From positions 1 to 64,000 of the IMG/VR virus record IMGVR_UViG_3300044733_003647: a stretch of 64,000 nt of DNA; one strand, 5' to 3'. This document shows positions 7,790-31,497 of this stretch, piece by piece (position 1 is the stretch's first letter; every line of letters starts with the position of its first letter). The notes beneath the pieces are model-generated. The model saw only the letters and a program-made list of their open reading frames with translations, did no database searches and was not told the DNA's origin. Made by a program: the position numbers and the translations under genes. The DNA is from a virus.

Positions 7790-8437
7790 TTAAGCAGCCA
7801 CTGCTATCCGAATAACCTTTGCCATTTTCCGTCCATGGGCCGGATATCCAACCACTGCCACATCCTTGGAGTAGCAGGCACGGCAGCCATTACACTTGCC
7901 ACCATGCTCATATGCACGGCACAGCGTGACACCAGCAGGCACATTGGATGCATCCGGCAGGATGGTGCTGCCATGGACACCATCCGTATACGTACCATCC
8001 ACAGCATCACTGGATGGACGGACCATGACATTAGGCAGTGCTTGCATGGCAGCAAGGATGGCAGCGAATTTAGTAAACTTATGCATCCTAGTGGGCAGCC
8101 AGTGCTTTACATGGGGAGTAGCCACCATGACAGCGTACATTTTCTCCGCAAGCTCAAGGCTGTACATGTCCCCAGAATCGAACCACCGGAAGAAGCGCTG
8201 TTTGGAGAGCGCTTTCACCATGGTGTCCACCCAGTCAGCTTCCTGCCAAGCCAGCTTATTGTCGAAGCGGACGGCTTTGACGCCAGGGAAATTGTACATT
8301 CCGGTGGTAGCGTAGCAACCAGAGCAAGCAGCGACCAGGTCGCCGTTGGTGGCTTTGCTGCCGGGGCAAGTCTCAATAGCTTGCAGCGACCAGGACAGGA
8401 TGTTGTCCAGCTTGGAGGTTTTGGAGAGCTTATTCAT
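7790..8437 (-). CDS. GP88-like Cys-rich phage protein, 215 aa
   Basis: Shows the pattern of the phage 'gene product 88'-type family: SWSLQAIETCPGSK, CSGCYATTG near residue 40, FFRWFDSGDMYS at ~80, WLPTRMHKF at ~115, and a C-terminal cluster CRAYEHGGKCNGCRACYSKD. The repeated Cys pairs suggest metal or iron-sulfur binding. The biochemical role is unknown. It has its own promoter (8468-8495) and is more GC-rich than the genes outside the island. Confidence 0.7.
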   Translation of the reverse strand: MNKLSKTSKLDNILSWSLQAIETCPGSKATNGDLVAACSGCYATTGMYNFPGVKAVRFDNKLAWQEADWVDTMVKALSKQRFFRWFDSGDMYSLELAEKMYAVMVATPHVKHWLPTRMHKFTKFAAILAAMQALPNVMVRPSSDAVDGTYTDGVHGSTILPDASNVPAGVTLCRAYEHGGKCNGCRACYSKDVAVVGYPAHGRKMAKVIRIAVAA

Positions 8438-8467
8438 TTTCTTGCCTTTTCTTGAATCGATGGATGG

Positions 8468-8495
8468 ATTATGACAGGACCAGAGGAAATGGCAA
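8468..8495 (-). promoter_or_regulatory. Island promoter P1 (TTGCCA-N16-CATAAT)
   Basis: On the - strand TTGCCA (8495-8490), 16-base spacer, CATAAT (8473-8468), 31 bases before the ATG of the GP88-like gene. Its upstream flank is almost identical to that of promoter P5. Confidence 0.75.
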
Positions 8496-8567
8496 CTGTA
8501 AACTTTAGTACTCCATCCGCCTGGTCAACCTCTTGCCAAGGACAATGGACTATGATAGGCTGCTCGG

Positions 8568-8705
8568 TTATGCTAGGACTGTACCGATTTGCTTGGCAAT
8601 GCTGACAACACCATTCCAGAGGATGTTAGCGGTGGCCATGGTTTGCACAGGAAACGCAGCACCAAGAACCATGAAACCAAAAGCAAGCAGCAACCGAATG
8701 ATCAT
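8568..8705 (-). CDS. Small secreted or membrane protein, 45 aa
   Basis: Reads MIIRLLLAFGFMVLGAAFPV, then QTMATANILWNGVVSIAKQIG. The N-terminus looks like a signal peptide or single TM segment, with possible cleavage after AFP-V-Q-T-MA. The ATG overlaps the stop of the upstream 33-aa ORF (ATGA), so the two are translationally coupled. The function is unknown; the pair could be a holin- or lysis-like or superinfection-related membrane duo. Confidence 0.55.
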   Translation of the reverse strand: MIIRLLLAFGFMVLGAAFPVQTMATANILWNGVVSIAKQIGTVLA

Positions 8706-8803
8706 ACAGCTCTCCAAAAGAAAACGTCCATACCAACCACGAACAATGCAAGCGCACCAACCACGGACAGGATCAGCAGCTCATGGCGATCAAAAAAGGA
8801 CAT
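8702..8803 (-). CDS. Very small membrane protein, 33 aa
   Basis: Reads MSFFDRHELLILSVVGALAL, followed by FVVGMDVFFWRAV: one TM helix with a short polar N-terminus. The ATG overlaps the stop of the 87-aa gene (TAATG) and its own stop overlaps the ATG of the 45-aa gene. This chained overlap supports that all three are real and cotranslated. Confidence 0.55.
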   Translation of the reverse strand: MSFFDRHELLILSVVGALALFVVGMDVFFWRAV

Positions 8804-9066
8804 TAAGCCCCCTTGGTGATAGTAACAGCACCAGCCTTGCGGTTGGCTTTGGCAGCCTTGGCACCAACCTTGCCGACCTGCTTGGACAGCAGCTTCTGGA
8901 GGCGAGCCTCTGCCTTAGCGATGGCAGCTGCCTGCTTGGCTTCTGCAGCCTCCAGCTTCTCTGCTTTCACCCGAGCAGCCAGCTGCTGGATCATAGCTTT
9001 AATTTCCTTAACATCAGCGCGAGCCTTACGGAGAGCTGCAACGGAGGGGGAGAGAGTCTTGGACAT
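8803..9066 (-). CDS. Ala/Lys-rich helical protein, 87 aa
   Basis: A continuous predicted coiled coil from about residue 8 to 70 (heptad-like ALRKARADVKEIKAMIQQLA...), very rich in Ala, Lys and Glu. It is reminiscent of small histone-like or spacer proteins, but no family is recognised. Preceded by ribosome-binding site GGAAG and promoter P2. Confidence 0.6.
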   Translation of the reverse strand: MSKTLSPSVAALRKARADVKEIKAMIQQLAARVKAEKLEAAEAKQAAAIAKAEARLQKLLSKQVGKVGAKAAKANRKAGAVTITKGA

Positions 9067-9096
9067 ATTGTCTTCCTTTCAAATTACGATGGTTGA

Positions 9097-9124
9097 ATTA
9101 TGACAGAATTGGAGGGATTGGCAA
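9097..9124 (-). promoter_or_regulatory. Island promoter P2 (TTGCCA-N16-CATAAT)
   Basis: - strand TTGCCA (9124-9119), 16 bases, CATAAT (9102-9097). The 5' leader (TTCAAATTACG...CTTCC region read on +) is nearly identical to that of P5. Just upstream on the - strand lies the CCGGTCAAGTATCC element shared with P4. Confidence 0.75.
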
Positions 9125-9148
9125 GCATCCATTGGATACTTGACCGGA

Positions 9149-9349
9149 TTAGTATGATTGACCACCAGGAAAACGCTCCCGGCTCCGACCAGGTTCGTGA
9201 TAAGATTCGAAAACCTTCTCCTTAAGCTTGGTGCCACGAACCGTGCGGATGGCTTGAATCTCCGCCTCCAAGCGCCGGTGTTCGGTATGGTAAGCTTCCA
9301 AAGCCTTGGCTTGGAGGGCTTTTAATTCTCGGATAGATTGTGTTTTCAT
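9149..9349 (-). CDS. Small charged helical protein, 66 aa
   Basis: Reads MKTQSIRELKALQAKALEAY and continues with HRRLEAEIQAIRTVRG, so mostly one amphipathic helix. The only usable starts are ATG 9352 and ATG 9349, which lie 7-10 bases after the -10 box of promoter P3. The transcript would therefore be leaderless or nearly so. Function unknown. Confidence 0.5.
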   Translation of the reverse strand: MKTQSIRELKALQAKALEAYHTEHRRLEAEIQAIRTVRGTKLKEKVFESYHEPGRSRERFPGGQSY

Positions 9350-9359
9350 CATGGAATGG

Positions 9360-9387
9360 ATTATGACAGAACCACAGGAAGTGGCAA
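9360..9387 (-). promoter_or_regulatory. Island promoter P3 (TTGCCA-N16-CATAAT)
   Basis: - strand TTGCCA (9387-9382), 16 bases, CATAAT (9365-9360). The -10 ends only seven bases before an ATG. The -35 flank overlaps the stop codon of the upstream gene. Confidence 0.7.
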
Positions 9388-9396
9388 TATACAACC

Positions 9397-9609
9397 TTAG
9401 TTCTCCAGCGGAGCGAACGGCTTTGCCATTTCATTATTGCAGGCCGCCGGGAACACTTTGCGGATGTCCTTGTGAACTGTCGCCAAAGACACTTCGAAGA
9501 TCCAAGCCACAGTCTCCGCTCCTTCGGCACTGGGCCACAAAGCACCGCTATGATACTGGTGAGCTTTGGCTAAAGCCAGTTCCCAGATCGCTTCTTTGTA
9601 AGTTTTCAT
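9397..9609 (-). CDS. Small helix-turn-helix-like protein, 70 aa
   Basis: Start ATG 9609 has AAGGAG at the right distance. The segment AETVAWIFEVSLATVHKDIR reads as a helix-turn-helix (A-x3-x-V-S-x-x-T-V-x-x-D-I), so it could be a DNA-binding regulator of the island. Otherwise unrecognised. Confidence 0.55.
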   Translation of the reverse strand: MKTYKEAIWELALAKAHQYHSGALWPSAEGAETVAWIFEVSLATVHKDIRKVFPAACNNEMAKPFAPLEN

Positions 9610-9636
9610 GGTCAGCTCCTTGTTGTCTATGTGTGT

Positions 9637-9664
9637 ATTATACCGGAACCGTGGAGAATGGCAA
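9637..9664 (-). promoter_or_regulatory. Island promoter P4 (TTGCCA-N16-TATAAT)
   Basis: - strand TTGCCA (9664-9659), 16 bases, perfect TATAAT (9642-9637). Upstream lies CCGGTCAACTATCC, matching the flank of P2. Confidence 0.8.
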
Positions 9665-9695
9665 CCATCCAAGGATAGTTGACCGGACTGGAGGG

Positions 9696-9914
9696 TTATT
9701 CCTCCTTAGCCAGCTCCTTGCCCATATCAAAGTCCAGGCATTCCTGAAGCGTAGGCTCGGGGAAGGCCAAGCACTCCTGCTCGACCATTTCACAATAGAC
9801 CTCAGCCACCCAGGACACGGGGACCTCATACTTGGAGGCAATCTCCGCAAAGGTCAAAGGACCATCCAGTATGTCCTTTTGGATATCAAAAACAAGGTTG
9901 GACATAGCGCTCAT
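9696..9914 (-). CDS. Small helix-turn-helix-like protein, 72 aa
   Basis: Residues about 18-40 (GPLTFAEIASKYEVPVSWVA) have the form of a helix-turn-helix seen in small phage regulators. The C-terminal half is acidic. Start at ATG 9914 (GGAAG upstream); ATG 9905 is a possible alternative. Together with the 70-aa neighbour it suggests the island encodes its own regulators. Confidence 0.6.
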   Translation of the reverse strand: MSAMSNLVFDIQKDILDGPLTFAEIASKYEVPVSWVAEVYCEMVEQECLAFPEPTLQECLDFDMGKELAKEE

Positions 9915-9941
9915 ATCTTCCTTTCAAATTACAATGGTTGG

Positions 9942-9969
9942 ATTATGGCGGATCCACAGGAAATGGCAA
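9942..9969 (-). promoter_or_regulatory. Island promoter P5 (TTGCCA-N16-CATAAT)
   Basis: - strand TTGCCA (9969-9964), 16 bases, CATAAT (9947-9942). The flank ACTAAAGTTTATGG matches P1 with very few differences, and the leader matches P2. Confidence 0.75.
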
Positions 9970-10002
9970 CCATAAACTTTAGTATTCCATCACCTTGGTC
10001 GG

Positions 10003-10152
10003 TTATTCCACAATCCGATACTTCCCGCTTTTGGGGAGGACGGTACCGTATGCACCAGCAATCCATACGGCGCGCTGGTAATGTGAAGCAGCAATGTACA
10101 TTGTGACAACCTCACCATCCGGCTTCAGAATTTTGAGCTCATACCGTGTCAT
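10003..10152 (-). CDS. Small hypothetical protein, 49 aa
   Basis: Reads MTRYELKILKPDGEVVTMYI, then AASHYQRAVWIAGAYGTVLP, then KSGKYRIVE. It looks like a compact beta-rich domain. The ATG at 10152 is preceded by GGAATG and by promoter P6 at the expected distance. Unknown function. Confidence 0.55.
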   Translation of the reverse strand: MTRYELKILKPDGEVVTMYIAASHYQRAVWIAGAYGTVLPKSGKYRIVE

Positions 10153-10181
10153 CCGCATTCCTTTGTTTAACCGATGGATGG

Positions 10182-10210
10182 ATTATGGCGGAGGATGGAA
10201 GGATTGGCAA
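10182..10210 (-). promoter_or_regulatory. Island promoter P6 (TTGCCA-N17-CATAAT)
   Basis: - strand TTGCCA (10210-10205), 17 bases, CATAAT (10187-10182). First promoter of the inverted cluster; it is divergent from the + promoter at 10248. Confidence 0.75.
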
Positions 10211-10233
10211 GCGCTCAGGAATGATCCAGCGGA

Positions 10234-10255
10234 CCGGTCAAGAATGCTTGACCGG
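10234..10255. promoter_or_regulatory. Perfect 8-bp inverted repeat over a -35 box (candidate operator)
   Basis: CCGGTCAA (10234-10241) and TTGACCGG (10248-10255) are exact reverse complements separated by six bases. The right arm contains the -35 box of the promoter at 10248. Single copies of TTGACCGG or CCGGTCAA recur near 9140, 9676, 10390 (CCGGTCAA) and 13303, so this may be the binding site of a local repressor. Confidence 0.55.
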
Positions 10256-10275
10256 GGCTCCAGCTCTGGTATAAT
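10248..10275 (+). promoter_or_regulatory. Sigma-70 promoter for a candidate small RNA
   Basis: TTGACC (10248-10253), 16 bases, perfect TATAAT (10270-10275). No convincing reading frame follows before the next promoter at 10413, which suggests a non-coding transcript. Confidence 0.75.
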
Positions 10276-10281
10276 GGACTC

Positions 10282-10412
10282 ATTCGAAAGCAGCCTGGGG
10301 TGGACGCTGGGGCTGCGTGACTGATCCACGACTATCGATACCTCTGCCGCGATAGGAATTTCCAATCGCAAAACGCTTGCCATAGCACTCCGGTCAAGAA
10401 TGCCAAAAGCGC
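10282..10412 (+). ncRNA. Candidate structured small RNA with a possible H-type pseudoknot
   Basis: About 130 bases between two + promoters with no credible gene. GCAGCC (10290-10295) pairs with GGCTGC (10311-10316). Inside that loop GTGGA (10300-10304) can pair with TCCAC (10325-10329) beyond the stem, giving pseudoknot topology. A second hairpin CTATCG (10332-10337)/CGATAG (10350-10355) follows. No T-run terminator is evident, so it could be a long leader of the 10471 gene instead. Confidence 0.4.
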
Positions 10413-10440
10413 TTGACAAACCGACCAATGCCTGTATTAT
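10413..10440 (+). promoter_or_regulatory. Sigma-70 promoter
   Basis: TTGACA (10413-10418), 16 bases, TATTAT (10435-10440), 30 bases before the ATG at 10471. Confidence 0.75.
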
Positions 10441-10470
10441 CTCATTATTGATTCAACGAAAGGCGACACC

Positions 10471-10680
10471 ATGAAAGCAGTAAAACTTCAGTATGCGGAA
10501 ATTCGGAGTATTATCAGCAATATGTCCGAAGCATCATATTCAAAATATGGATCATATTCATATTCTGCTGGTTATCTGGAATCTCAATTGGCGCAAGTAA
10601 TGGCCGATTTACCCGCTAATAAGCAAATTGATATTATCAAAACGCTTCAGCGGACCATTAATGATTTGCAAAAGGCATAA
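10471..10680 (+). CDS. Hypothetical protein, 69 aa
   Basis: First + strand gene after the divergent control region, with AAAGG upstream. It contains a Ser/Tyr-rich stretch (SKYGSYSYSAGYLESQLAQV) and a C-terminal helix (IDIIKTLQRTINDLQKA). No family is recognised. Confidence 0.6.
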   Translation: MKAVKLQYAEIRSIISNMSEASYSKYGSYSYSAGYLESQLAQVMADLPANKQIDIIKTLQRTINDLQKA

Positions 10681-10681
10681 T

Positions 10682-10855
10682 ATGGATTATAAAATCGAAT
10701 ATGATGGCGAATTCTATAATGTATATTATGGAGATAATCATTTAGAAACCTTTTGGTCTCTGAGTGAGGCTCTGGATTATCGCGCTATTATGATATGGGA
10801 GCGAGATAATGCCTTTCAGGACTATGGTACCGAGTGGGATATTGAGATGGTTTGA
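10682..10855 (+). CDS. Hypothetical protein, 57 aa
   Basis: The ATG at 10682 follows the upstream TAA by one base. Small alpha/beta protein (MDYKIEYDGEFYNVYYGDNH, then a helix SLSEALDYRAIMIWERD). Unknown. It is followed by about 350 bases without a gene that hold the origin-like site and a structured leader. Confidence 0.55.
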   Translation: MDYKIEYDGEFYNVYYGDNHLETFWSLSEALDYRAIMIWERDNAFQDYGTEWDIEMV

Positions 10856-10967
10856 GCGTCTCCTGCGTGATTTTGGTAGGTTTTGGATATATTTCGGTGC
10901 AATGCAGAAACTAAGTATCCAATCCTACTACCTATCCGCGACATTCTCCGCGCAGGTACGTACAGGC

Positions 10968-11081
10968 TGTGGATAACTTGTGGATAACATGTGGATATCA
11001 TCAGGTATGCATTATATTGCATAGTACTATAATGCATATCAGGTAAGCATTGAGGTAAGCATGGCGGTAGCGATCAGGTAG
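10968..11081. other. Origin-like region: three tandem DnaA boxes plus iterons
   Basis: TGTGGATAA occurs at 10968-10976 and 10979-10987, and TGTGGATAT at 10990-10998, with exact 11-base periodicity. The first two are perfect DnaA boxes (reverse complement TTATCCACA). Directly after come repeats ATCAGGTATGCAT (11000), ATCAGGTAAGCAT (11038), TGAGGTAAGCAT (11051) and ATCAGGTAG (11073). TGCATTATA (11008-11016) and TATAATGCA (11028-11036) form a perfect inverted repeat. The layout resembles iteron plasmid origins such as P1 oriR. No initiator gene is recognised nearby, so origin function is an inference; a DnaA-binding regulatory site is the alternative. Confidence 0.55.
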
Positions 11082-11090
11082 ACTCTATTT

Positions 11091-11134
11091 AATACAATGG
11101 TTCTCATACTAAAACACTGGAGAACTATTGTATT
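11091..11134. repeat. 15-bp inverted repeat (hairpin)
   Basis: AATACAATGGTTCTC (11091-11105) pairs with GAGAACTATTGTATT (11120-11134), with one G-U pair and a 14-base loop. It lies between the iterons and the promoter at 11138. It could be a terminator-like element without a T-run, part of an origin structure or a protein-binding site. Confidence 0.6.
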
Positions 11135-11137
11135 AGG

Positions 11138-11165
11138 TTGACAAACCTAGGAATACCTGTATGAT
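11138..11165 (+). promoter_or_regulatory. Sigma-70 promoter with overlapping palindrome
   Basis: TTGACA (11138-11143), 16 bases, TATGAT (11160-11165). The inverted repeat AATACCTG (11152-11159)/CAGGTATT (11167-11174) brackets the -10 box. It contains the iteron core AGGTA, so the same protein might bind the iterons and repress this promoter. It drives the small-gene block from 11206. Confidence 0.7.
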
Positions 11166-11205
11166 TCAGGTATTGATTGATTGATTCTTTACATGAGGTA
11201 ACATT

Positions 11206-11460
11206 ATGCGACATTCTGACATTATTGAGATGGTAAACGATTTGCTGGATGAGCAAGGTGAGGTTACTATTGGTAATCTAACCTTTTATCCTTCCCAGAT
11301 TCTCCGTGAGTGTGATCCGGTTGCTTATCGGATTACTGTCAACGAATATATCGATAATATGATTCAAGATTTGGAATATGATCTTGAGCGTACCGATGAT
11401 GGTGATGAGCAGGTAGATTTGAAAGAGCAAATTGCTCACCTTGAAGATTGCTATATGTGA
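11206..11460 (+). CDS. Hypothetical acidic protein, 84 aa
   Basis: The ATG follows GAGGTAAC. Acidic alpha/beta protein with IIEMVNDLLDEQGEVTIGNL and a C-terminal acidic helix (MIQDLEYDLERTDDGDEQVD). It is similar in style to small early genes of large phages; no family is recognised. Confidence 0.6.
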   Translation: MRHSDIIEMVNDLLDEQGEVTIGNLTFYPSQILRECDPVAYRITVNEYIDNMIQDLEYDLERTDDGDEQVDLKEQIAHLEDCYM

Positions 11461-11468
11461 GGTAATAG

Positions 11469-11675
11469 ATGGGTTTCGAAAAACGTATTCTAAATGAGAT
11501 TGATCCTTTGTTGGATTCTGATACTCATGTTGAATTCTATAATGGTACATTGTTCTTGGAGAATGTATCAGGCGAGACAGGTAAGCGGATCTATAATAGG
11601 TTGGTGAAACGTCTAGGTAAGGAAAATATCATTTTCTCTACTATTGGTGATGGTTTCGCTGTTGATTTTGTTTGA
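11469..11675 (+). CDS. Hypothetical protein, 68 aa
   Basis: Starts after a GAGGTAATAG ribosome-binding region that resembles those of its neighbours. Sequence: helix at the start, central LFLENVSGETGKRIYNRLVK, and strands at the end. Unknown function. Confidence 0.55.
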   Translation: MGFEKRILNEIDPLLDSDTHVEFYNGTLFLENVSGETGKRIYNRLVKRLGKENIIFSTIGDGFAVDFV

Positions 11676-11696
11676 CGAAGTAATTGAGGTAAGGTT

Positions 11697-12011
11697 ATGG
11701 CAAAATTGTTGATTACTACCCAGGTTCACGAAAACTATGGTGCCCATACTTGGGATGGTGAAGGTGTATGCCCCCAATACTGGAAAGCAAAGGGTGGTAG
11801 CCATTATGTGGTACGTAATATTACCGATTTTAGTAATATCACGGAGATTGTGATGGCGGTTCGACCTCAGGTAGAATCGGATAATGAATATTTCCGTGAA
11901 TACATTATCGATTGGGAGGTAGTCGCTGATGATTATCTCACCGAATTCGAAAAGCATCAGCTGGAATATGATGGTGTGATTCGTTTTGCACCCAAAGAAT
12001 TGACAATCTAA
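11697..12011 (+). CDS. Conserved phage protein, 104 aa
   Basis: Begins MAKLLITTQVHENYGAHTWD and includes CPQYWKAKGGSHYVVRNITD. The TTQVxENYGAHxWDGxGxCPQYWKxKGG pattern is widespread in phage and prophage small proteins of unknown role. Preceded by GAGGTAAGG. Confidence 0.65.
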   Translation: MAKLLITTQVHENYGAHTWDGEGVCPQYWKAKGGSHYVVRNITDFSNITEIVMAVRPQVESDNEYFREYIIDWEVVADDYLTEFEKHQLEYDGVIRFAPKELTI

Positions 12012-29888: not shown

Positions 29889-30542
29889 ATGTTTAATTAT
29901 TGCCCACCAATGAAGTTGCCTGAACTGAAGTCAGAAACATTTCCAAATGGTAAAAGATATTACGTCACACCAAGTGGATCAAAACTGCCTTCAGTCACCA
30001 CTGTAGTCGGCGCACAGAAGAAAGAGGCCATCATGGCCTGGCGCCGTAGGGTTGGTGAAGAAACTGCAAATAAGATTTCTAAACAGGCAACTTCAAGGGG
30101 CACTAATGTTCATACGCTTTGCGAAAAGTATTTGAACAATGAGGCATTAGGTGAGATGATGCCTGATGCATTTCAAATGTTCAAGTCTCTTAAACCTCTA
30201 TTGAATCGTATCAACAACATTCATTATCAAGAGGTTGCGCTGTGGTCTGAACAACTAGGATTGGCAGGTCGTGTTGACTGTATCGGTGAATTTGATGGCA
30301 AACTATCGGTAATTGATTTTAAAACTTCTAAAAAAGTTAAGAATCTAGAAGACATTGAAGATTACTTTTGGCAAACTACCGCATATGCACTGATGTATGA
30401 GGAACTGGTCGGTAAACCGATTGATGATCTTGTGATTATCATGGCCGTACAAGATGGTGAGCCAATTCTTTTCAAGCAGAAGACCTCGGATCATATCGTT
30501 GGTTTGGTGAAAGCCATTGATTATTACCGAAAAAACTCTTGA
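29889..30542 (+). CDS. PD-(D/E)XK exonuclease (RecB/MGME1-like), 217 aa
   Basis: The family signature is clear: GTNVHTLCEKYLNNE (~75-89), GLAGRVDCIGEFDGKLSVID (D in GRVD, ~115-133), FKTSKK (the D-x-K motif, ID-F-K), and YFWQTTAYALMYEEL (Q-x-x-x-Y). Such nucleases trim single-stranded ends in recombination, as with mitochondrial MGME1. The tmRNA promoter's -35 overlaps its stop codon. Confidence 0.85.
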   Translation: MFNYCPPMKLPELKSETFPNGKRYYVTPSGSKLPSVTTVVGAQKKEAIMAWRRRVGEETANKISKQATSRGTNVHTLCEKYLNNEALGEMMPDAFQMFKSLKPLLNRINNIHYQEVALWSEQLGLAGRVDCIGEFDGKLSVIDFKTSKKVKNLEDIEDYFWQTTAYALMYEELVGKPIDDLVIIMAVQDGEPILFKQKTSDHIVGLVKAIDYYRKNS

Positions 30543-30567
30543 CAACTAAATAAATTACCACTATAAT
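30539..30567 (+). promoter_or_regulatory. Perfect consensus sigma-70 promoter of the tmRNA
   Basis: TTGACA (30539-30544), exactly 17 bases, TATAAT (30562-30567). This is the ideal E. coli-type promoter and the strongest-looking one in the window. Its -35 overlaps the stop of the exonuclease gene. Transcription should begin near 30575, at the start of the acceptor piece. Confidence 0.9.
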
Positions 30568-30574
30568 AGTGGTT

Positions 30575-30638
30575 ATGGTTGTATGAAGCAACTGGAAACG
30601 TGTTCTGGACGGCGGTTCGATTCCGCCCAGGTCCACCA
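30575..30638 (+). ncRNA. ssrA: Permuted tmRNA, acceptor piece (3' tRNA-like half)
   Basis: This segment precedes the coding piece, the reverse of a normal ssrA gene. It ends GGCGG-TTCGATT-CCGCC (a five-pair T stem and loop), then CAGGTCC-A-CCA at 30628-30638. CAGGTCC pairs with GGGCCTG at 30756-30762 to give the seven-pair acceptor stem, including a G3-U70 wobble, the alanine identity element. TGTTCT (30601-30606) pairs with AGGGCA (30776-30781) as helix P2. A short hairpin (GTTG/CAAC) sits near the 5' end. The encoded CCA and strong promoter support a functional molecule. Confidence 0.9.
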
Positions 30639-30755
30639 AAAGAATTCTGAGTGTACCGTAATCGGTCTTGAACCGTGCGGTGAAGGTGTTAAGCAGTAAC
30701 AAGTGAACCTGTAGCACTAGAGCGACACCTGCTCCTTAGACAGAATTCTTCTGAT
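30639..30755 (+). other. tmRNA intervening sequence (removed from the precursor)
   Basis: 117 bases joining the two tmRNA pieces. AAGAATTCTG (30640-30649) and CAGAATTCTT (30741-30750) are perfect complements and extend the acceptor stem into a long hairpin in the precursor, as expected for a substrate of RNase P and 3' processing. The interior carries ACCG-TAAT-CGGT (near 30656) and AGGTGTT/GACACCT pairings. No reading frame is likely here. Confidence 0.85.
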
Positions 30756-30921
30756 GGGCCTGACCAGGTTTCGACAGGGCAAAGAGTATAGAAGTGGACA
30801 ACTCACCAGAGAAGGTGTAAAAACTAAATTAAGTAAACGCAAACGATGAAAAGTTCGCATTGGCAGCCTAAACGCTGACTAGGGTTTCGATAGGTTTCCT
30901 CGTAACAGAATAACCTATCAC
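30756..30921 (+). ncRNA. ssrA: Permuted tmRNA, coding piece with tag ANDEKFALAA
   Basis: Begins GGGCCTGACCAGGTTTCGAC, matching the conserved 5' end of bacterial tmRNA (GGGGCTGA...GATTCGAC). The resume codon GCA is at 30839. The frame reads ANDEKFALAA, then TAA (30869-30871), preceded by TAAGTAAAC. CAGC/GCTG flanks the stop as in helix P5. An eight-pair hairpin, GATAGGTT/AACCTATC (30888-30895 and 30912-30919), marks the likely 3' end. The tag ends in ALAA, the degron recognised by ClpXP and related proteases. Role: rescue of stalled ribosomes during infection, perhaps replacing degraded host tmRNA. Confidence 0.92.
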
Positions 30922-30939
30922 AACATTGAAAGGAAAACA

Positions 30940-31497
30940 ATGAAAAGTAAACCAATACTTTTATCCATTGCTTTTTCTGCGACAATTCTGTTTTTGGGTA
31001 TGATTAACGTTGATCTTCATCGTATACTGCCATTCAAAACATCTTATGAGCTTTTGTCTAAAGATGTTCAGAAACAAGTTACATGTCTCGCGGAAAATAT
31101 CTACTTTGAGGCCGCACATGAGCCTCTAGACGGCAAAAAAGCCGTTGCGTTTGTGACGATTAATCGTTTGCAAACTGGAAATTATGCACACACTATCTGT
31201 GATGTTGTCTTTCAAAAGACTAATGGAACTTGCCAGTTCTCTTGGTACTGTGACGAATCCGTCCTTAGAAAACGCTTGACAATACGTGATACAAAACTGT
31301 ATAATGAGATTCGTGAGTTGGCAATTCACATGGTTGTCAATTACGAACGTATGAAAGATGTTACGGATGGTGCAACATACTATCATGCGGATTATGTGAA
31401 TCCTGGGTGGAAATTAAAGAAGGTCGACCAGATTGGTCGTCACATCTTTTATCGAAGCAACAAGGATAATATTGATAGAAATAAGGAGATTATATGA
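30940..31497 (+). CDS. Cell-wall hydrolase (SleB/CwlJ family), signal-anchored endolysin, 185 aa
   Basis: N-terminal hydrophobic segment MKSKPILLSIAFSATILFLG (TM ~6-25) suggests a signal-arrest or signal peptide. The Hydrolase_2 core has CLAENIYFEAAHEPLDGKKA (catalytic Glu in the IYFEA motif), VAFVTINRLQT, TCQFSWYCDE and DGATYYHADYVNPGW. It acts on peptidoglycan during lysis. It sits directly after the tmRNA behind AAAGGAAAAC. A second, lysozyme-like enzyme domain is in the 802-aa tail protein. Confidence 0.85.
   Translation: MKSKPILLSIAFSATILFLGMINVDLHRILPFKTSYELLSKDVQKQVTCLAENIYFEAAHEPLDGKKAVAFVTINRLQTGNYAHTICDVVFQKTNGTCQFSWYCDESVLRKRLTIRDTKLYNEIRELAIHMVVNYERMKDVTDGATYYHADYVNPGWKLKKVDQIGRHIFYRSNKDNIDRNKEII

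Follow-up and report, generated by a model that had tools for sequence, protein, structure and literature searches.

We suggest that the 350-bp non-coding gap at positions 10856-11205, which lies at the divergence of the early genes and contains a cluster of DnaA boxes, houses a conserved cis-acting origin or control region that resembles oriE of phage T4 and recruits the host initiator DnaA. We give this reading a probability of roughly 0.45, and what speaks for it is comparative and architectural throughout. By its phased repeats, dyads, AT-rich segments and early promoter, the locus appears origin-like. A cluster of DnaA boxes in this position is unexpected in phages equipped with a replication machinery of their own.

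The source record is a 156,657-bp IMG/VR sequence, and the stretch analysed here (the window) is a 64-kb part of it. The phage, judged to be a T4-like phage from freshwater, has a T4-like set of genes comprising a peptidase (phrog_459), a T4-type DNA polymerase, UvsX, a gp41-like helicase, a gp59-like helicase loader and a gp32-like SSB. DNA comparison with the isolated phages of a phage collection gave no close relative, and when proteins are compared the nearest isolated phages are cyanophages, with no more than 40%. A permuted tmRNA gene of betaproteobacterial type (30525-30962, plus strand; tag ANDEKFALAA) is also present, its type hinting at a betaproteobacterial host. Elsewhere in the genome, at about 138.9-140.0 kb (L205:14862-15968), a gene directly downstream of that for the gp41-like helicase matches DruA, a Druantia defence protein (Pfam, E = 5e-11).

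Transcription is divergent on either side of the locus. The leftward cassette ends with GP88, which also points leftward in L127, L133, L156, L160, L174, L183 and L218; between the cassette and the gap stand two small genes that point rightward (10471, 10682), and beyond the gap comes a rightward early array. The promoters ahead of the genes of the leftward cassette, at 8495, 9124, 9387, 9664, 9969 and 10210 (minus strand), are alike, of the form TTGCCA-N16/17-(C/T)ATAAT, and several have upstream GGA(G/A)(A/T)ACTA or CCGGTCAA motifs. The G+C content of about 0.50 between 7800 and 10400, compared with about 0.38 on the flanks, suggests that this cassette is of a different source. The features of the locus and its borders are as follows.

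7790-10158, minus strand: leftward cassette of GP88 (7790-8437) and small genes, with early-type promoters ahead
10862-10956 (about 95 bp), plus strand: non-coding core element with CCTGCG/CGCAGG ends and an inner dyad TTGGATA/TATCCAA
10938-10954, plus strand: a pair of GCGAC-type motifs with 12-bp spacing, GCGACA at 10938 and GCGCA at 10950
10968-10976, minus strand: predicted DnaA box 1, TTATCCACA, perfect (direct reading and pattern search)
10979-10987, minus strand: predicted DnaA box 2, TTATCCACA, perfect (direct reading and pattern search)
10990-10998, minus strand: predicted DnaA box 3, ATATCCACA, one mismatch (direct reading and pattern search)
11003, 11041, 11053 and 11076: 10-bp repeats, AGGTATGCAT at 11003, AGGTAAGCAT at 11041 and 11053, and the partial copy AGGTAGACTC at 11076
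11006-11016 / 11028-11038: perfect 11-bp inverted repeat with an 11-bp centre (repeat search)
11041-11080, plus strand: four [A/C]GGTA motifs, at 11041, 11053, 11065 and 11076 (12, 12 and 11 bp apart)
11090-11135: 16-bp inverted repeat, 94% complementary, 14-nt loop, z = -6.5, a hairpin or operator
11138-11165, plus strand: strong predicted sigma70 promoter of early type, TTGACA-N16-TATGAT, ahead of the rightward early genes (consensus match)
11206-11460, plus strand: first gene past the gap, 84 aa, phrog_9396/9294, function unknown

The three boxes follow one another at an exact 11-bp period (10968-10998), and the two perfect boxes and one near-perfect box in helical phase that a first, sequence-only reading had described were borne out by direct reading and pattern search. 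Other parts of that reading required revision. Copies of its three iterons and partial fourth are present, but the first is out of register (spacings of 38 and 12 bp), and it is the 5-mer [A/C]GGTA that recurs in register; the perfect inverted repeat likewise exists, but sits between iterons 1 and 2 and contains most of iteron 1. The interval proposed for the site, 10968-11081, misses its best-conserved part at 10862-10956 and should be extended to approximately 10862-11165, the dyad at 11090-11135 and the promoter at 11138-11165 belonging to the same module. Within the core, AAACTAAG occupies 10908-10915. In duplex stability the bins 10980-11039 and 11080-11139, both AT-rich, rank at the 8.5th and 5.3rd percentiles, and they lie either side of the GGTA array; the 3' ends of the boxes in the window face GC-rich DNA, with the AT-rich bins on the other side, unlike the arrangement in oriC. 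A GC-skew check neither supports nor refutes an origin, as the cumulative dip at 8-10 kb tracks the leftward genes and fourfold sites have no clear switch.

Two other explanations for these elements were considered and rejected. Only six of the 30 AGGTA on the plus strand of the early region have an ATG within 12 nt, and remnants of ribosome-binding sites therefore do not explain the phased array. The core was also compared with ordinary early promoters, which share GGAG(A/T)ACTA upstream motifs, but it has no -35/-10 pair.

A chance origin of the box cluster is excluded. Tandem TTATCCACA pairs at 11 bp are expected about 8e-6 times per genome; one was observed, together with a third, near-perfect box in phase. 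Box-like 9-mers with at most one mismatch are not raised in the window (94, compared with 108 +/- 10 in shuffles), and the signal is the cluster of boxes and not their total abundance. With two mismatches allowed, the tandem pattern had one other match in the genome, a weak one, and the largest records contained almost no further strong match. Of chains of three or more [A/C]GGTA motifs, the 156.7-kb genome has only one. The exact tandem-box 20-mer TGTGGATAACTTGTGGATAA was also found in at least 120 viral-contig stretches, far above chance.

Relatives were gathered via the peptidase, core DNA patterns and GP88. The core motif, AAACTAAG followed by GCGAC, occupies the same syntenic position in 20 T4-like contigs, which do not represent 20 independent events, some of them being mutually related; for relatives other than L127 and L211, a crude global comparison with the window gives identities of about 0.45-0.6. 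Perfect boxes stand beside the core in 12 of the 20 (the window, L133, L160, L174, L183, L013, L218, L233, L234, L240, L241 and L269). The segments counted, within 250 bp on the 3' side of the core, add up to 5,020 bp and contain 33 boxes, whereas 337,116 bp elsewhere contain 17. Conservation of the boxes in relatives, proposed earlier as a check, holds: they are enriched 130-fold at one syntenic spot, commonly 11-12 bp apart, but their exact spacing and their orientation relative to the core differ among relatives. This conservation strengthens the case for a predicted involvement of DnaA. In a further contig, L156, boxes are clustered at this position with no recognisable core.

Conservation of the core is higher than that of the boxes. 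In a comparison of the window with L133, identity is 90% and 80% in the two 50-bp bins of the core and 32-78% in the neighbouring bins, coding ones included. The boxes and iterons are not the centre of the site: conservation is stronger in the separate ACTAAG/GCGAC element, and boxes are missing from two close relatives. These two, L127 and L211, are 82-98% identical to the window flanking the boxes and 12% identical in the 50-bp bin of the boxes; at the junction GCGCAGGTA is joined directly to TGCATTATATT, with about 48 bp cleanly absent between CAGGTA repeats. Boxes occupy this position in L133 and L160, which are more distant, so that a loss in L127 and L211 through recombination between short repeats seems the likelier direction of change. 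As the box segment alone is absent, the boxes are selected but dispensable, and since six further contigs with the core (L167, L190, L194, L198, L244 and L251; eight of 20 in all) have no boxes nearby, the element in general cannot depend on DnaA.

Absence from L127 and L211, as for an accessory trait, would also suit a decoy, in which phage copies sequester host DnaA and block firing of oriC as a device of host takeover. Two to five high-consensus boxes per genome, multiplied by the phage copy number, could contribute to such an effect. However, a decoy would have no need to keep to one position next to a conserved element and early promoter, and the few boxes present early in infection would lead to little titration; we consider this scenario improbable.

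The repeats next to the boxes show a similar periodicity. A pair of GCGAC-type motifs 11-12 bp apart is found in the core of the relatives read, GGTA motifs are spaced by 11-12 bp in the window, L127 and L211 (with four-copy chains in the latter two), and L160 has two AGGTA beside its boxes. The helical spacing of these arrays suggests that a nucleoprotein complex forms on the DNA. In the box-less relatives L189, L194 and L198, tandem AGGATAATCT-type repeats were observed directly ahead of AAACTAAG.

The core could instead encode a structured RNA, either a regulatory RNA or a replication pre-primer, to which the DnaA boxes are mere neighbours. The hairpin energy of 10858-10966 is below that of shuffles (z of about -2.3 for one strand and -2.6 for the other), although the z-scores for the whole element are modest and differ little between strands. 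One pair position shows three pair types (GC/AU/UA) among four relatives, but this covariation is within the controls, with 38 of 500 shuffles reaching the score and a slide of +1 scoring higher. There is no fold common to all groups of relatives, and an Rfam search with the core returned no credible match to a known RNA family. An RNA of this kind is in our view an unlikely explanation.

A closer rival emerges from the promoters. A promoter of the TTG(A/C)CA..TATAAT type follows the boxes in L133, L160, L183, L013, L233, L234, L240 and L241, and most of the relatives with boxes have them placed between the core and a promoter of early type. DnaA might act here as a transcription factor, its boxes tuning early promoters to the replication state of the host, in an early-gene control region that is not an origin. 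The regulation of transcription by DnaA is established (PMC8203912), and in L183, L013, L233, L234 and L240 a distance of about 42-52 bp separates the end of the last perfect box from the -35 downstream of it. However, boxes and promoter are about 105-150 bp apart in the window, L133 and L160, no promoter stands out by eye near the boxes of the podovirus-like contigs described below, and several tandem boxes with extra phased arrays exceed the needs of simple regulation. DnaA regulation of the early promoter is a possibility to be held tentatively, and it explains the locus nearly as well as an origin does.

Box clusters also accompany GP88 in other phages. A survey covered 55 GP88 loci for which 2 kb or more of upstream sequence is present. 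Of these, 18 have two perfect boxes within 60 bp of each other in the 2.6 kb upstream, and the box density upstream of GP88 is 18 times that downstream. Podovirus-like contigs are among the 18; such contigs, apparently unrelated to T4 (L257, L263, L264, L265, L266, L271 and L290), have clusters of perfect boxes just before GP88. Here the terminase runs leftward and GP88 rightward, the cluster is flanked by the terminase on one side and the early genes on the other, and the two contigs tested have a phrog_239 primase/helicase; L263 has three boxes at an 11-bp period. A box cluster near GP88 is absent from Acinetobacter phage AM24, Pelagibacter phage HTVC027P, Roseobacter phage CRP-4 and isolate ct2os315. 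The presence of DnaA-box clusters before GP88 in podovirus-like freshwater contigs suggests a wider habit.

T4-type genomes are usually circularly permuted, and a fixed internal stop makes little sense in such a genome, which argues against an injection-stop signal like that of T5 (ISS). The position of the podovirus-like clusters between terminase and early genes would agree with a signal of this type, as would the combination of repeats, dyads and DnaA boxes in the T5 ISS (PMC13250531), but we regard it as very improbable for this locus. Both titration and an injection stop are less likely than an origin or the regulation of a promoter.

For the origin reading, the anatomy of the locus, its conservation, its uniqueness in the genome and the presence of replisome genes (gp43, UvsX, gp41, gp59 and gp32) are directly established. 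We propose that host DnaA, which is present already at infection, would bind the tandem boxes, and other proteins would attach to the dyads and to the GCGAC and GGTA motifs in phase, so that one nucleoprotein complex forms. Transcription from the early promoter, together with bending or melting by DnaA, could then open the AT-rich segments, after which gp59 would load the gp41 helicase and gp43 polymerase would start copying. Later replication would be driven by recombination, with DnaA no longer needed. Against an origin stand the box-less near relatives, the variable orientation of the boxes, the box 3' ends directed toward GC-rich DNA and the fourfold sites without a clear skew switch.

A bolder form of the proposal, which we consider rather doubtful, is that this T4-like clade starts at least its early replication with host DnaA at a single conserved compound origin, from which the gp59/gp41 replisome takes over the opened DNA. 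The melting step alone would be outsourced to the host, and the ACTAAG/GCGAC core would serve as a platform for a phage or host factor. The clade provides a natural comparison, with near-identical phages that have or lack the box segment around a conserved core, and it makes testable whether the host initiator is used by a phage with a complete T4 replisome for opening an origin, for timing early transcription or for starving the host of DnaA.

Among known systems, the closest parallels are with T4 oriE, which has 12-nt iterons whose role is unestablished and described as still ill defined, has an early promoter and lies near a transcription switch (PMC3016281). Our locus shares with it short phased direct repeats (the GGTA and GCGAC arrays, differing in sequence and length from the 12-nt repeats of T4), an early-type promoter at the site (11138-11165, predicted by consensus), a nearby switch in transcription direction (leftward at 7790-10158, rightward from 10471) and a phage that has gp43, gp41, gp59 and gp32. 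Unlike oriE, it has in addition the DnaA boxes, the ACTAAG/GCGAC element and the GP88 neighbourhood; in the oriE review DnaA has no occurrence (PMC3016281). The sequence-only reading had called such a site unusual in a T4-type phage, and this is true of the DnaA boxes, but the contrast was drawn too sharply given the iterons of oriE itself (PMC3016281).

With P1 oriR, the model favoured in that reading, and with other iteron plasmid origins, the locus shares tandem DnaA boxes at the origin edge, beside short repeats and AT-rich DNA. The P1 analogy nevertheless fails, as no Rep family was recognised among the ORFs of 7790-12008 and no plasmid origin was matched. In place of long Rep iterons in register (about 17-22 bp) there are 10-bp repeats at spacings of 38 and 12 bp and short 5-mers 11-12 bp apart, and unlike iteron plasmids the phage has its own replicative helicase and loader. 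In a plasmid DNA search, the best match spans no more than the 34 bp of the tandem DnaA boxes.

As in bacterial oriC, consensus TTATCCACA boxes stand in tandem next to AT-rich DNA and, as in DnaA-dependent origins, they are conserved across relatives (12 of 20 contigs). Unlike in oriC, there are only three boxes, they are absent in eight of the 20 and vary in orientation between relatives, and in the window the AT-rich DNA lies opposite to their 3' ends. The ISS of the lytic phage T5 likewise combines DnaA boxes with palindromes, inverted repeats and multiple other repeats (PMC13250531), but this first-step-transfer signal marks the end of the first-step DNA, whereas ours is an internal site of a T4-like genome. 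Finally, Pseudomonas phage PseuGes_254 has an origin with a DnaA-box cluster predicted by Ori-Finder (PMC11512268), proposed in silico like the one described here; that prediction concerns a single genome, whereas ours draws on a comparison over about 20 contigs together with box-less close relatives.
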